Positions 1,167 through 18,062 of a DNA stretch of 25,789 bases are shown piece by piece. Below the pieces are notes generated by a model. That model did no database searches, was not told the origin of the DNA, and was given only the letters and a program-made list of their open reading frames with translations. This DNA is from a virus: positions 1 to 25,789 of IMG/VR virus record IMGVR_UViG_3300027754_000384; one strand, given 5' to 3'. Within the stretch, counting starts at the first letter, position 1. The number at the start of each line of letters is the position of its first letter. The translations under genes and the position numbers were made by a program.

Positions 1167-1644
1167 GATTCAATTGTTTTAATTCCGCAAGCGTTACGGT
1201 TTTTGTATCGCATCGGAAAGTAAAGTTATTATCCATTTCGCCTGCCAGGTGCAAAATAGCATTATTAAAAAAATCTATTTTTGAAATATAGCCATTAATA
1301 AAAACCTTTGAAAAATCATTCATAACATAAATGCAGCAATAAAAATCGCATTGTTGATTATATTGATCGCATGGCAATTTAAATTGGTGCGCTAATCTTG
1401 GGGGATTATTTACGCGAGTTGCTTTAATTTCAATCTTTTTATTGTTCATTAAAAAATCATAATCAAATTGCTGCGCATGAATTATATCTTTTCCAATTGA
1501 CGAAAAGTAATCAAGGAAACATATTTCGGCAATTGCCCCGGCAGCATTGCCATCGCCTTCAGTAAAGGATTTATTTAAAATTCCAAAATCGTAAAGAGTT
1601 TTTGCTCTTTTTAATTGGTTTAAACTTGGAGTTATTGTTATCAT
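1159..1644 (-). CDS. Putative PD-(D/E)XK endonuclease-like protein
   Basis: The 161-residue protein shows a restriction-endonuclease-like layout: GAIAEICFLDYF near residues 36-47 (Glu40 as the helix glutamate), DYDFL near 61-65 (Asp61/Asp63), and KKIEIKA near 69-75 (Glu72 and Lys74). This E...D...ExK pattern is that of PD-(D/E)XK nucleases. I do not recognise a named family. The ATG overlaps the aminotransferase stop as ATGA (1641-1644) and the 3' end overlaps the VRR-NUC gene. It may cut host or branched DNA. Conservation of all three acidic and lysine positions argues that it is active, but its specificity cannot be read from the sequence. Confidence 0.6.
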   Translation of the reverse strand: MITITPSLNQLKRAKTLYDFGILNKSFTEGDGNAAGAIAEICFLDYFSSIGKDIIHAQQFDYDFLMNNKKIEIKATRVNNPPRLAHQFKLPCDQYNQQCDFYCCIYVMNDFSKVFINGYISKIDFFNNAILHLAGEMDNNFTFRCDTKTVTLAELKQLNHE

Positions 1645-2852
1645 GTTGTTTGTTTTTTAATTGAAAAAATTATTACTTGTATTATTGTTTGAATTTGCGC
1701 ATCTGTTAAATCAAAATAAACTGGCAAAGAAATTTCATTTTGATATTTATTCCAGGTTTCCGGATAATTTATTATTTTATAACCGCGCTTTTTATATGCT
1801 GTTAAAATTGGAAGCGGTAAAAAATGAACATTAACCGAAACATTTTGATTGAAGATTTCATCAATTATTTTATCTCTCATTGATTCATCTATTCCTTTTA
1901 TCCTTAATTGATAAAGATGAAAGCTGCTAATTTTATTTTGAGTTGTATGCAATGGAAGCATTGCCCAATCATATTTTGAAAATGCTTTATCATATAAATC
2001 AAATATTTCTTTACGGCGTGTTAAATTTTCTTCGTAGCGTTCCAATTCAACCAAGCCAATTGATGCTTGTAAATCAGTCATATTGCATTTAAAACCGGGA
2101 TGAACAACATCATAACGCCAATTTCCTTTTTGGCTTTTGGATAATGCATCTTTATTTTGGCCATGCAAAATCATTTCGCAAAACTCTTTATAAATTTTAT
2201 CATGATCAAATCTCTTTGGTAAATCAAAACAAAGCGCCCCACCTTCGGCGGTTGTTAAATTTTTAACGGCATGAAATGAAAAGGATGTTATATCGGTTAA
2301 ACTTCCGGCGCGTTTATTATTAGACAAAGCTCCAAAAGAATGAGCGGCATCGCTTATTATTAAAATACGGCCAAGTTGTTTTTGCAAAGATGAACTTGGA
2401 TTGAATTGTTGCTTTATTAATTTCTCTTTAACTAATTTATTTACTGCAATATAATCGCAAGGAAATCCGGCAATATCAACCAGGATAATTGCTTTTGTTC
2501 TTGGCGTTATTGCTTTACGAATTTCATCAATTGAAATATTAAAATCTTCTTGATTAATATCAACCATTATTGGCTTCGCTCCAGAATGAATAATAACATT
2601 TGCGGTTGCGCAATAAGTATATGCCGGCAATATAATCTCATCCCCTTCTTTGATTCCCCAGTAATTCAAAAGAACTTGAACGCCATTAGTCCAGGAATTT
2701 ACGGCAACGGTTGTTTTGCATCCGGTGTATTCCGTTATTTTCTTTTCAAAAAGTTTTGTTTTATGGCCGGTTGTAATCCATTTGCTTTGCAAAGTTTTTA
2801 CAACCTCATCAATAATTTTATCATCAATTCTTGGAATAAAAAAAGGAATCAT
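1641..2852 (-). CDS. DegT/DnrJ/EryC1/StrS-family PLP-dependent sugar aminotransferase
   Basis: The 403-residue protein has the full DegT/DnrJ/EryC1/StrS layout. The N-terminal IPFFIPRIDDKI...SKWITTGHKT is followed by NSWTNG (phosphate contact, near 52-57), LPAYTYCATANVI (75-87), ISDAAHSFGA (Asp168 for the PLP ring nitrogen) and SFHAVKNLTTAEGG (Lys197 as Schiff-base lysine). These enzymes transfer an amino group from glutamate to a nucleotide-linked keto-sugar. A stretch of about 20 residues before ISDAAHS appears to be an insertion relative to the minimal fold. ATGA overlaps on both sides tie the gene to the primase-helicase and nuclease genes. Length and catalytic residues suggest a working enzyme. 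Its sugar substrate, and why a phage carries it among replication genes, are unknown. Confidence 0.88.
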   Translation of the reverse strand: MIPFFIPRIDDKIIDEVVKTLQSKWITTGHKTKLFEKKITEYTGCKTTVAVNSWTNGVQVLLNYWGIKEGDEIILPAYTYCATANVIIHSGAKPIMVDINQEDFNISIDEIRKAITPRTKAIILVDIAGFPCDYIAVNKLVKEKLIKQQFNPSSSLQKQLGRILIISDAAHSFGALSNNKRAGSLTDITSFSFHAVKNLTTAEGGALCFDLPKRFDHDKIYKEFCEMILHGQNKDALSKSQKGNWRYDVVHPGFKCNMTDLQASIGLVELERYEENLTRRKEIFDLYDKAFSKYDWAMLPLHTTQNKISSFHLYQLRIKGIDESMRDKIIDEIFNQNVSVNVHFLPLPILTAYKKRGYKIINYPETWNKYQNEISLPVYFDLTDAQIQTIIQVIIFSIKKQTT

Positions 2853-5251
2853 AAGTTCATTGCTTTAATGGTTAATTCATCCCAAACATCCCCGGCTTTC
2901 GGAGCGTTGAAATTTTCAATTCTAAAATAGCGCCCGGAGCTGTTCCGGCCTTTTGTTAATTTTAATTTATTAAACTTGGCATATTCTCCAACCCACTTCA
3001 AAAATCTTCGCGCTTCAAGATCCTTCCATCCTGCGGTTTCATTCTTAAATAATTCTAAATAAGTATTATTAAATATAAATTCATCAATTTTAATCGGATT
3101 ATCATTCACAAAATCATAAAAATCTTTTGATGTTGCTTGGATGAATCTCTTTGCTTCGGCATTTATTGAAACCGATTTAAGCAATCCATTCTTTAAGAAG
3201 CTTTGCAAGTTGTGAATCATATAATTGTCAAATTTTGACCAGTCAATTTCCGACCATGAATCAAATAATAACCGGCCATAAATATCAAGGGGGCTTCTTT
3301 GCGCGTTAAAGTATTGAAAGAACTCCAGTTCGTGCCTTCTTCGATCATGAGAAGAACCGGCGCCGGCAATAACATAATTGGTTGTTAAAACTATTTTTGG
3401 GGAACGCTCAAATGGAATAAAGATTTCATCCTTATTTTTTCTGTTTACTGTTATGCCTTCGGAAATCAAAGAGAATAAATCTTCAAATACAAAATTTTTC
3501 TTAACATCATCCAGGGCTAAAATTTGAGAATCCAAATTAACTCTTTGATAAACAAAATCGCCTTTCAAGTTGAAAGCTTTGCCATCAATCTTTACAATTT
3601 TTCGAAGGTATCCGAGCGCGGTTAACATCAAGGATTTACCGGAACCGCCGTTTGCATTATCATCAATTTCTTGATCATTAAAGATAATTGCCTTTTGATC
3701 TGTTTTATCTTTAAATGTATGCAATAAATATCCAAGTGTTGTTTCAAGCGAAGCGGTACGGTTCTCATCTTCATTGCTTACTTTATAAACAAGATCCTTG
3801 AAATCATTATCGAAGGAATCAAGCTTCGTAAAATCCCGGCCAATTATTTGATTTTCCCAAATGTATCCATTAACATCAATGTAACTTTGTAAAACAACTT
3901 CTTTCTTTGTTATTTTAGCAACTCCATTTTTAAAGGGGATGAAAGAACAATCAATTGTATCTTGAAGCATCTTCAATGCAATTGAATCAATCATGTTTAA
4001 ATGATTCTCATTGAATAAATAAGTTGATTTTGAACAATAGTTCCAAACCTTGCATTCCCCTTTGCTCAAAAGAAAGGTTAACACAAAATCTTTTATTTGA
4101 TCCGTTGATGATAATCTAACTTTATTTTCTTGAACGCGTACAAAAGTTGGCTTTTCGGCATTTTCCGGGTAATACTTATTGAATCCATTCTTAACCAAAA
4201 ATTCCGAATATTTCATCGGTTCAACGGTTATTGTTTCAACTCCTTTTTTTATTTCTATTTCCCAAAATACATCTTCGGTTGTTGCAAGTTCATCTTTAAC
4301 ATCATTAATTATCGAATCATCAACATTCAATTGTTTCTTTATATCTCTCGGGTTGATTCCTTGCTTTAATTTATTCTTTACTTTAACAACAAGCTCCGTA
4401 TTCTCAAAGTATTTAATTCCTTGGCTTGCTTTTTTGTAAGCGGATTTAACTGTTTGAATTAATTCGCCTTGAGTAAAGCCAGGGGAAACAAATTGATTTT
4501 GCAAATAGTATTCGGCAGCATCTTTGGAAATATTGTATTCACAAAAACAAGCTGCAACCTTAAAAACATATTGGTTCCGGGAACCTTCGGAAAAAGTACA
4601 TCCAAAATCAAACTTCATTATCCGTTCAATTATTTTATTTTCATCATTTAAGATGCAAACCGGGGCTTTATCATAAAAATCAAATCCCTTTTCTTGGTCG
4701 ATTTGAGTAAACTCATCGCAAAATTCATTGATGTAAGCATCTGGATCATAAGATTCAAAGCAAACCCGGGAAACATTGCAACTCGTTGGATCAAAATAAT
4801 CCGAATTAAAGAACTTTTGAAATGCTTGGAACCTTCTTTTGTGTTCATCCTTGGTTGATTTGGGGATTTTAATAACCACTTTCAAACCTTTGCCCCCTGG
4901 CGATGTAAATAATAAATAAACAAAGGGGCAATTTTGTAATTTTTGCCTTTCTTCATTCATTGTTTGTTCATCTGGATAATCATCGAAATCCAAAACACAA
5001 AGCCCGGAATGTTGTATCAATCCATTATCATTGCGCTCATTAAATTGGCCGTTGAACATTATCGCAAGCAACGAATTTTTCAAGTTTCGATGTTGCTCGG
5101 ATGTTTCATCCAATTTTCTCAACCTTTCAATCTTTTTATTTAAATCGGAATACCCATTTTTAATGCGCTCAAACACTTCAAGCACTGTTAATGAATAAGG
5201 AGTTTCTTTTGCGTTAAATAAGCTCTTAAATACGCTAACTTTTGGAATCAT
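2849..5251 (-). CDS. BT4734-like primase fused to SF3/D5-type replicative helicase
   Basis: The 800-residue protein joins several modules. The N terminus has the BT4734/VirE-N-like signature: GLCVLDFDDY near residues 83-92 and TSPGGKGLKVVIKIP near 116-130. Next comes a PriCT-like helical segment, EGSRNQYVFKVAACF (222-236) to TVKSAYKKA (267-275). The C-terminal half is an SF3 helicase with Walker A GGSGKS (535-540), Walker B ILALDDV (577-583), motif C IVLTTNY (620-626) and an Arg-rich SSHDRRRHELEFF (633-645). Such proteins start and unwind DNA in Bacteroidetes phages. The gene starts just after the ATGACGAT array and overlaps the aminotransferase gene as ATGA. This is the main replication enzyme visible in the window. 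Confidence 0.85.
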   Translation of the reverse strand: MIPKVSVFKSLFNAKETPYSLTVLEVFERIKNGYSDLNKKIERLRKLDETSEQHRNLKNSLLAIMFNGQFNERNDNGLIQHSGLCVLDFDDYPDEQTMNEERQKLQNCPFVYLLFTSPGGKGLKVVIKIPKSTKDEHKRRFQAFQKFFNSDYFDPTSCNVSRVCFESYDPDAYINEFCDEFTQIDQEKGFDFYDKAPVCILNDENKIIERIMKFDFGCTFSEGSRNQYVFKVAACFCEYNISKDAAEYYLQNQFVSPGFTQGELIQTVKSAYKKASQGIKYFENTELVVKVKNKLKQGINPRDIKKQLNVDDSIINDVKDELATTEDVFWEIEIKKGVETITVEPMKYSEFLVKNGFNKYYPENAEKPTFVRVQENKVRLSSTDQIKDFVLTFLLSKGECKVWNYCSKSTYLFNENHLNMIDSIALKMLQDTIDCSFIPFKNGVAKITKKEVVLQSYIDVNGYIWENQIIGRDFTKLDSFDNDFKDLVYKVSNEDENRTASLETTLGYLLHTFKDKTDQKAIIFNDQEIDDNANGGSGKSLMLTALGYLRKIVKIDGKAFNLKGDFVYQRVNLDSQILALDDVKKNFVFEDLFSLISEGITVNRKNKDEIFIPFERSPKIVLTTNYVIAGAGSSHDRRRHELEFFQYFNAQRSPLDIYGRLLFDSWSEIDWSKFDNYMIHNLQSFLKNGLLKSVSINAEAKRFIQATSKDFYDFVNDNPIKIDEFIFNNTYLELFKNETAGWKDLEARRFLKWVGEYAKFNKLKLTKGRNSSGRYFRIENFNAPKAGDVWDELTIKAMNL

Positions 5252-5295
5252 AAGTTGTCTGTTTTTTGTATATATGTAAAAAAGGGGCTAAAATC

Positions 5296-5561
5296 ATGAC
5301 AATACATGACGATAATCGGGAAATATTCCACATAAAAAAATTTATCGTCATGGCTGTATCGTAATGCTGTTATGCGATTGCTGAAAGTCATGACGATATG
5401 ACGATAAAATTTCAAAAATTTTGAGTCAATTCCGCACTTTTTAAAAATAAGGGTAACTCTCATATAAATTTTATCGTCATCGTCATGGAATCGGCTACTT
5501 TGCAACAAGCATATGGCTTTAAGGCCATGACGCTATTTTTTTTATCGTCATTCATCGTCAT
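5296..5561 (-). repeat. Array of ATGACGAT repeats: candidate replication origin or operator
   Basis: The 310-bp gap between the primase-helicase start and the stop of the DnaA-like gene holds eight exact copies of ATGACGAT in either orientation (starts 5306, 5344, 5390, 5398, 5473, 5479, 5544, 5554) and two near copies (5296 with ATGACAATA, 5527 with ATGACGCTA). They form three facing groups: forward 5296/5306 with reverse 5344; forward 5390/5398 with reverse 5473/5479; forward 5527 with reverse 5544/5554. Five copies extend to TTATCGTCAT. ATGACGATAAAATTT at 5398-5412 and its exact complement at 5466-5480 make a 15-bp inverted repeat around an AT-rich stretch. An iteron-type origin or a cooperative operator fits; the choice is inference. 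Confidence 0.7.
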
Positions 5562-5921
5562 TCAATAAATGTTTTTATTAATCAAAGTCTTAAGTTTATT
5601 AAGTTCCTTCATATTTTTGCAATCAATTACTCTTTTTTGCAATGGCTTATAATATTTCTCAAAGGGAAATTGTTCGCGAAGCTTCAAAGTGCAATATAAA
5701 TAAAGTTCATCTTGTTGTTTCATCCAATTATTATGGCAAGCAATTCCATGCAATACGCTTGCATGATGCTTGTTAAACATTAATCCAATATGTTGGAACG
5801 GCATCCCCTGGGTACGCAACAAAGCGTAAAGATAATATCTTTGATAAGTTATTGCAAAGTTTCTGTTCGGTAAATCAAGTTCATGTTCTTGAATATACTC
5901 TTTGATTGTATCTAAATTCAT
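5562..5921 (-). CDS. Solitary DnaA domain IV-like DNA-binding protein
   Basis: The 119-residue protein matches the C-terminal DNA-binding domain of DnaA over residues 20-60: an arginine-rich helix NRNFAITYQRYYLYALLRTQG, then a helix-turn-helix MPFQHIGLMFNKHHASVLHGI. The KHHASVLHG segment aligns with the DnaA signature RDHTTVxHA that contacts the DnaA box. There is no AAA+ domain. The rest of the protein is helical and basic, ending KLKTLINKNIY. The gene ends exactly where the ATGACGAT array begins and precedes the primase-helicase, so an origin-binding or autoregulatory role is likely. A one-base gap separates it from the 81-residue upstream gene. The family is well supported; the target site is inferred. 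Confidence 0.68.
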   Translation of the reverse strand: MNLDTIKEYIQEHELDLPNRNFAITYQRYYLYALLRTQGMPFQHIGLMFNKHHASVLHGIACHNNWMKQQDELYLYCTLKLREQFPFEKYYKPLQKRVIDCKNMKELNKLKTLINKNIY

Positions 5922-17377: not shown

Positions 17378-17387
17378 ATATATTATG

Positions 17388-17395
17388 TATTTTTG
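17388..17395 (+). promoter_or_regulatory. TAnnTTTG element driving the plus-strand gene
   Basis: TATTTTTG matches the Bacteroidetes -7 consensus TAnnTTTG at every fixed position. It ends 4 bp before the ATG at 17400, so a start site 4-7 bp further on would give a leaderless or almost leaderless message. The nearest TTG upstream (17359-17361) is 26 bp away, longer than the usual -33/-7 spacing. Confidence 0.5.
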
Positions 17396-17399
17396 TTCG

Positions 17400-18062
17400 A
17401 TGAATTTTGTTTATCCATATAAAAAGCGTTCCGAAGAATTTGAACTCATCCATTCAATCCGTTGGATTCGAATGAGTTTTCCCCTGGCGAATGTTTATGT
17501 TGTTGGCGATTATTTCCCGGATGTTATTCACATCCCTTGCAAACAATTCAACAACATCCGCGGTTGCGATGTTACAAATAAGATGCTAACTTTTGCAAAT
17601 CAAATTGGCGGGAAATTTATTTACATGAATGATGATTTCTTTTGCACTCCAAATTTGAAACCCGAAAATCCAATTTATAAGGGAAATTTAATCGTTAATG
17701 AATCTCATCCCCCGCATTATCAAGTTGCTGCAATGAATACCCTTGAATTTTTAAAGTATTATAACCGACCAACTTTGAACTATGAAACTCATTCGCCGGT
17801 TTTAATGGATTCTAAACGCTTAATTAAAACATTTGAACAAGTTAATTGGAAGGATGATAATCATTTCATTAAATCAATCTATTTAAATTCTAATGTTCCA
17901 AAGAAATCCATTGAAGGATTCAACTGTAAAATCAATTCATCCAACATTCCAACGGCTTTGCAATATTTGGATGTTCATGGATGCTTTTCAACCGGCAAAG
18001 CGTTCCTTGATGATGCCGGGGCAACCTGGATTAAAACTTTGATTTTTGTTCCGCAACCATAA
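17400..18062 (+). CDS. Stealth-like sugar-phosphate transferase or glycosyltransferase (moron)
   Basis: This is the only clear gene on the plus strand. I choose the ATG at 17400 (MNFVYPYKKRSEEFELIHSI, 220 residues), after the promoter-like octamer; an ATG at 17385 lies before it. Pattern: EEFELIHSIRWIRMSFPLANVYVVGD near residues 12-36, KFIYMNDDFF near 72-81, and NYETHSPVLMD near 128-138. The spacing of ELxxSLR, the strand VYVVGD, the acidic NDDFF and a later H-x-P recall regions CR2-CR3 of Stealth hexose-1-phosphate transferases. Those enzymes act in capsule and wall-polymer synthesis. The protein is shorter than cellular members. It could modify host surface sugars or the virion. Another GT-A-like transferase is the alternative. 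Confidence 0.6.
   Translation: MNFVYPYKKRSEEFELIHSIRWIRMSFPLANVYVVGDYFPDVIHIPCKQFNNIRGCDVTNKMLTFANQIGGKFIYMNDDFFCTPNLKPENPIYKGNLIVNESHPPHYQVAAMNTLEFLKYYNRPTLNYETHSPVLMDSKRLIKTFEQVNWKDDNHFIKSIYLNSNVPKKSIEGFNCKINSSNIPTALQYLDVHGCFSTGKAFLDDAGATWIKTLIFVPQP

Follow-up and report, generated by a model that had tools for sequence, protein, structure and literature searches.

A candidate iteron origin exchanged together with its primase-helicase gene beneath a conserved DnaA domain IV-like gene in uncultured phages

The locus and its repeat array

The window analysed here is the whole 25,789-bp contig of IMG/VR record IMGVR_UViG_3300027754_000384. Genes near its repeat array (5296-5561, boxes on both strands) are all encoded on the minus strand, and the array is flanked by two of them. 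On one side lies rep (2849-5251), coding for an 800-aa primase-helicase fusion, the proposed initiator, which comprises a BT4734-like_N primase, a PriCT_1 domain, SF3-type helicase motifs recognized by eye and a predicted C-terminal winged helix. The latter (residues ~703-784, encoded at 2900-3145 on the minus strand) is the putative reader of the repeats. In structure prediction, the C-terminal domain was modelled as a winged helix over protein residues ~704-780 (residues ~265-341 of the fragment) with pLDDT values of mostly 81-91, and its structural matches to winged helices are of medium quality, with a best Z of 6.7. Modelling of the helicase core was poor, which explains why Foldseek returned only weak matches for the helicase-C-terminal model; Pfam gave no helicase match on the C-terminal fragment of Rep. 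Two scans of GTDB genomes, using the primase-helicases of the window and of plasmid pSR14, revealed no relative.

On the other side, a gene at 5562-5921 (minus strand) encodes a 119-aa protein with the fold of DnaA domain IV and a helix-turn-helix motif, but without an AAA+ domain. Bac_DnaA_C (PF08299) is detected by Pfam in 34 of 36 members of this family at E<=0.01, and the protein of the window itself matches it with 8.1e-5, which falls below the curated cut-off. Its model (mean pLDDT 91) matches the DNA-binding domains of DnaA from E. coli and M. tuberculosis with Z 9.9 (1j1v) and 9.7, while the next unrelated fold scores Z 6.0, and a profile search likewise matched it to DnaA in the PDB. 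As deduced from known DnaA structures, the invariant histidine and a basic-loop R/K of the family appear to fall at the box-reading positions of DnaA.

Directly after rep, a gene for a DegT/DnrJ/EryC1-family sugar aminotransferase is found (1641-2852, minus strand), an unexpected member of a replication module. Among the few sizeable plus-strand ORFs, the one at 17385-18062 has a weak Stealth_CR2 match (E 0.0036, below the curated cut-off). The record also encodes a portal protein and has further genes that look like head and tail genes, so that a satellite element in need of a helper phage seems less likely.

The array contains eight exact copies of the 8-mer ATGACGAT/ATCGTCAT within 256 bp, between 5306 and 5561, three of them reading ATGACGAT on the plus strand (5306, 5390 and 5398) and five on the minus strand (5344, 5473, 5479, 5544 and 5554). 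Further exact copies are absent from the remainder of the record. A preliminary description of this DNA had given the same number of exact copies, likewise confined to the gap before the primase-helicase gene, together with two near copies; our count of one-mismatch copies is three (5296, 5358 and 5527). Order-3 Markov replicas of the window (n = 60) contained at most four copies of any 8-mer with at least two G/C in 266 bp.

The boxes form facing groups, in which boxes on the same strand start 6, 8 or 10 bp apart, again as described before. Nearest to the primase gene, the near copy at 5296 and the exact copy at 5306 form a plus-strand pair with 10-bp spacing (5296-5313). It is followed by an inverted box on the minus strand (5344-5351), a 38-bp spacer (5352-5389) and two tandem boxes on the plus strand, 8 bp apart (5390-5405), which together make up the core of the array. 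Beyond a stretch with 78% A+T (5406-5472), a candidate melting site between facing box groups, two minus-strand boxes overlap at 6-bp spacing (5473-5480 and 5479-5486; pair 5473-5486), and another minus-strand pair, 10 bp apart, lies nearest to the DnaA-like gene (5544-5551 and 5554-5561; pair 5544-5561). The perfect 15-bp inverted repeat 5398-5412/5466-5480 was recovered on rechecking. The DNA inside it had been called AT-rich, and it is indeed richer than its surroundings, though only moderately so, with 72% A+T between the arms versus 65% in the window. An 86-aa ORF across the array (5248-5508) was treated as a chance reading frame, and searches of the array and of the leaders downstream of it against Rfam produced no credible match.

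Conservation of the array in relatives

Scans of IMG/VR yielded 135 loci with a DnaA-domain-IV-like gene (L numbers below), 92 of which are distinct and contain an identifiable Rep and enough sequence. Of the 120 loci in which the rep start is intact and preceded by 1.5 kb or more of sequence, 119 have a DnaA-like gene just upstream of rep. Behind this one DnaA-like family, three types of Rep occur: P1, the type of the window; P2, which is ~35% identical to P1; and P3, which is of the DUF3987 type and has no BLAST match to P1. All 64 distinct relatives with a P1 Rep have the array at the corresponding position upstream of rep. Thus, related phages keep the array, and with it its spacing, which is what the preliminary description had proposed to look for. 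The box itself varies by clade, being ATCGTCAT in the clade of the window, ATCGTCAC in two clades, TTTGTCGC/TTTGTAAC in another and GTTGTCAC in L080 (collectively, M1 boxes). The core of P1 arrays, by contrast, keeps its layout, in which two tandem boxes with starts 8 bp apart are separated by a spacer from an inverted box, while the box sequence drifts: gaps of 38 and 46 bp, counted from one and the other tandem box, are found in 57/64 and 58/64 distinct P1 arrays, respectively, in a tally for which the spacing was not fixed beforehand. P2 and P3 cores, each with its own box definition, are arranged alike, their spacers being 39-40 and 35 bp long. Additionally, the overlapping 6-bp box pair recurs in L032 and L034. 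Relatives of clade D possess 4-6 boxes only and lack most of the left-hand group, so that not all box groups seem to be essential. In the closest clade, variation affects 4 of 62 positions inside boxes and 20 of 248 other positions, which does not discriminate between the two.

In a related contig of 31,992 bp, all six exact box copies (6/6) lie inside the array, and a second dense box cluster was not found in any of the contigs scanned. Equally dense copies elsewhere had been named as evidence against the earlier proposal, and their absence favours an origin, although it says nothing either way about an operator. In six near-complete relatives whose arrays were located, the cumulative GC skew, also suggested as a check, runs mostly monotonically along the coding strand and shows no inflection at the array. 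It thus gave no support, in a test that is weak because nearly all genes lie on one strand.

Several further elements accompany the arrays. A CTGAAAG-like element is present in the core spacer (the place of 5352-5389 in the window) of many P1, most P2 and all P3 loci, and is thus kept across unrelated initiators and different iterons; CTGAAAGG also occurs in arrays of Salinibacter ruber. In L081, L064, L057, L176, L178 and L160, an inserted ORF parts the array from rep by 640-900 bp, and several of these ORFs are HNH-endonuclease-like by eye. Between the array and the rep start of L012, L015, L034, L039, L048, L066, L144 and others, we noted a candidate leader RNA with no Rfam match. It would fold into a pseudoknot with a covarying inner helix (GCG/CGC, CCG/CGG, AAC/GTT, AGC/GCT, GTG/CAC) and covarying pseudoknot arms (ATGGCGC/GCGCCAT, GATGCAG/CTGCATC, GTTGCAG/CTGCAAC), with near-constant GAGTA and GAAA followed by a T run. 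This leader was not seen in the clade of the window. A different conserved leader, likewise without a match in Rfam, precedes rep in the P2 loci L158, L175, L184 and L188 and contains GGGGTTGTCGGAGGCATCCACTTAAAAGG...CCTTTCCCC in most of them.

Natural exchanges of array and rep

The comparison of repeats across the three Rep types adds an observation that was absent from the preliminary description: changes in the repeat go with changes in the primase-helicase, not with those in its DnaA-like neighbour. M1 boxes are found in 64/64 P1 loci, GGTACA boxes in 22/23 P2 loci and GTGTGAA boxes in 5/5 P3 loci; hence, repeat and Rep type go together in 91 of the 92 distinct loci. These counts use motif definitions fitted to the very loci that were counted and take loci as independent, uncorrected for relatedness. 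The single exception, L188 (P2; rep 2852-5236), uses a box of its own, GGGGCAGAT. The Reps of L188 and L158 share 81% identity, with the lowest values in the last 80 residues, and L188 may represent a second natural change of specificity.

The switch of repeat with Rep can be followed in several separate pairs of loci. In L070/L199, L071/L172, L064/L158 and L068/L180, the DnaA-like proteins are 97.7-99.3% identical, while the Reps differ and the repeats differ with them. Conversely, DnaA-like proteins which are only 23-25% identical stand beside the same repeat if the Rep type is the same. The exchange boundaries are sharp. Nucleotide identity between L080 and L119 ends at the stop codon of the DnaA-like gene, and between L064 and L158 it ends six bases before the end of this gene and resumes ~45 bp before the rep stop codon. 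These breaks indicate that the array and rep behave as one exchangeable cassette. On the sequences compared, it is therefore the primase-helicase, and not the 119-aa protein, that the repeat follows, and the putative origin and its proposed initiator are exchanged as a unit beneath a conserved DnaA-domain-IV gene.

Arrays are also encountered without the DnaA-like gene. The record of L197 (33 kb, perhaps incomplete) lacks this gene and has six copies of AGTACACAT within 290 bp upstream of a P2-type rep, the product of which is 50% identical. In the circular S. ruber plasmids pSR14 and pSR31, PF08299 finds no match. The primase-helicases of these plasmids are homologous to the phage protein over the helicase and C-terminal half (~30% identity) but have a TOPRIM-type front, as judged from weak Pfam matches, and eight copies of GTGGTCCA (pSR14) or ten copies of GTGTCACA (pSR31) are located immediately 3' of the gene. 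All nine GGTCCA-type cores of pSR14 (9/9) align with GTCAC-type cores of pSR31, while the two Reps differ at only 45 of 773 positions, ten of which fall into the last 23 residues, ten into the first 40 and four between residues 320 and 750. This distribution points to the C-terminal wing of Rep as the site of iteron specificity, although the N terminus differs as well and may contribute. In the reverse direction, a 9-mer scan found no convincing array beside the DnaA domain-IV genes of Muminvirus, Pelagibacter phages (pelagiphages), Cellulophaga phi46:1 and ctfjg026 (L094, L112-L116).

As for the constant DnaA domain-IV-only protein, it might serve as a general adaptor above exchanged cassettes of array and initiator, of which at least three kinds exist, for instance by binding the CTGAAAG-like element or host factors; we consider this role rather unlikely.

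A probable iteron origin and its alternatives

SaPI/PICI and SCCmec elements already provide examples of iterons beside primase-helicase initiators (PMC6092414, PMC7581432), so the earlier statement that the array is of a type not seen described was too strong. In PICI origins, two sets of iterons flank an A+T-rich region (PMC6092414), and the C-terminal domains of the SaPI Rep and SCCmec Cch2 helicases bind the iterons (PMC7581432). The phage locus resembles these elements in its short iterons, arranged as two sets around an A+T-rich region (here 5406-5472) beside a primase/helicase initiator. In SaPI/PICI, the C-terminal domain of Rep reads element-specific iterons (PMC6092414, PMC7581432), and the phage Rep presumably does likewise. 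Differences concern the position of the array, which is found 5' of rep in the phage but immediately 3' in PICIs, as well as the phage's own structural genes, 38-bp core and conserved upstream DnaA domain-IV gene. With Cch2, the phage protein shares a D5-type helicase, and the isolated C-terminal domain of Cch2 binds direct repeats beside its gene (PMC7581432); Cch2, however, has no fused primase and only three 5-nt iterons, compared to eight exact 8-mers and a fused primase here. Initiators of the pRN1 type combine primase, SF3 helicase and winged helix (PMC4234260), which is the same three-domain architecture as proposed for Rep, and their origin likewise lies beside the gene, but consists of a large stem-loop, whereas direct repeats and their spacing are conserved in the phages. 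Plasmids pSR14 and pSR31 are alike in the homologous helicase and C-terminal half and in 8-10 iterons beside the gene, and differ in the TOPRIM-type primase half, the 3' position of the array, the unrelated iterons and the lack of a DnaA-like gene. Finally, bacterial oriC also combines clustered 8-9-bp sites with a gene of DnaA domain-IV fold; in the phages, though, no AAA+ domain is present in the protein, and the repeat varies independently of this protein.

Taking together the co-variation of the repeat with Rep, the conserved spacing, the arrays without a DnaA-like gene, iteron reading by the C-terminal domains of SaPI Rep and Cch2, the layout of PICI origins and the domain set of pRN1-type initiators, the array is probably an iteron origin, and its reader would be the winged helix at the C terminus of Rep. 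In this model, the winged helix would bind the ATCGTCAT boxes, and the geometry of Rep assembly on both sides of 5406-5472 would be set by the tandem pair together with the inverted box beyond the fixed 38-bp spacer. The DNA would then melt at this A+T-rich stretch, where the SF3-type helicase could load itself, followed by the start of synthesis by the fused primase. Binding of Rep to the array may also autoregulate rep. Autoregulation through iteron binding is common to many iteron systems.

Of the two functions named in the preliminary description, a replication origin or a cooperative operator, the origin is thus the best-supported one, though not proven, while a function as operator only is its main rival. 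In the latter case, Rep or a co-exchanged regulator would bind the array cooperatively and repress or activate rep, with replication starting elsewhere. The position of the array just upstream of rep would suit such an operator, as would a Bacteroidota-type promoter motif (TAnnTTTG, recognized by eye) between array and rep in many relatives, and the co-variation with Rep would arise just as well if binding of Rep to the array served solely to control rep. A simple rep operator is impossible, however, in the S. ruber plasmids, where the array lies 3' of the homologous helicase gene, and it sits poorly with the ORFs which part the array from rep by 640-900 bp in the relatives listed above. Moreover, the extent and symmetry of the array exceed those of a usual operator. 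On balance, we regard a purely regulatory array as unlikely.

Our first hypothesis was that the 119-aa protein reads the repeats in the manner of DnaA boxes, acting as origin-binding protein or repressor. Its DnaA domain-IV fold (Z 9.9 to 1j1v, Bac_DnaA_C in 34/36 members), the adjacency of its gene and the array in 119/120 testable loci and the likeness, judged by eye, of TTATCGTCA to the DnaA box TTATCCACA, with 7 of 9 positions shared, all speak for this idea. Nevertheless, nearly identical proteins beside entirely different repeats, proteins of 23% identity beside the same repeat, the arrays of L197, pSR14 and pSR31 without such a gene, and the other phages whose DnaA domain-IV genes have no array in the same scan make it highly improbable; judged from sequence, the swaps and the arrays without the gene speak strongly against the protein as repeat reader, and it is best seen as a conserved neighbour rather than the specificity determinant of the array. 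Least probable is a pRN1-like element, in which a single strand would fold into a large hairpin recognized by the initiator, since the good folding of the array as nested hairpins (z -6.8 relative to shuffles), reminiscent of the large stem-loops beside similar initiators in pRN1 origins (PMC4234260), is expected from any facing repeats, and the perfect 15-bp arms are missing from clade D, whereas boxes and 38-bp spacing are kept.

To our knowledge, only few origins of Bacteroidota phages are known. If the array is indeed an iteron origin read by Rep, the matched pairs of initiator and iteron, one of them swapped by nature, make origin recognition by primase-helicase fusions directly testable. 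For the prediction of origins in uncultured phages, repeats at the spacing of this array could be sought beside primase-helicase genes. At the same time, these loci call for caution, as a DnaA-like gene next to a repeat array need not encode the reader of that array.
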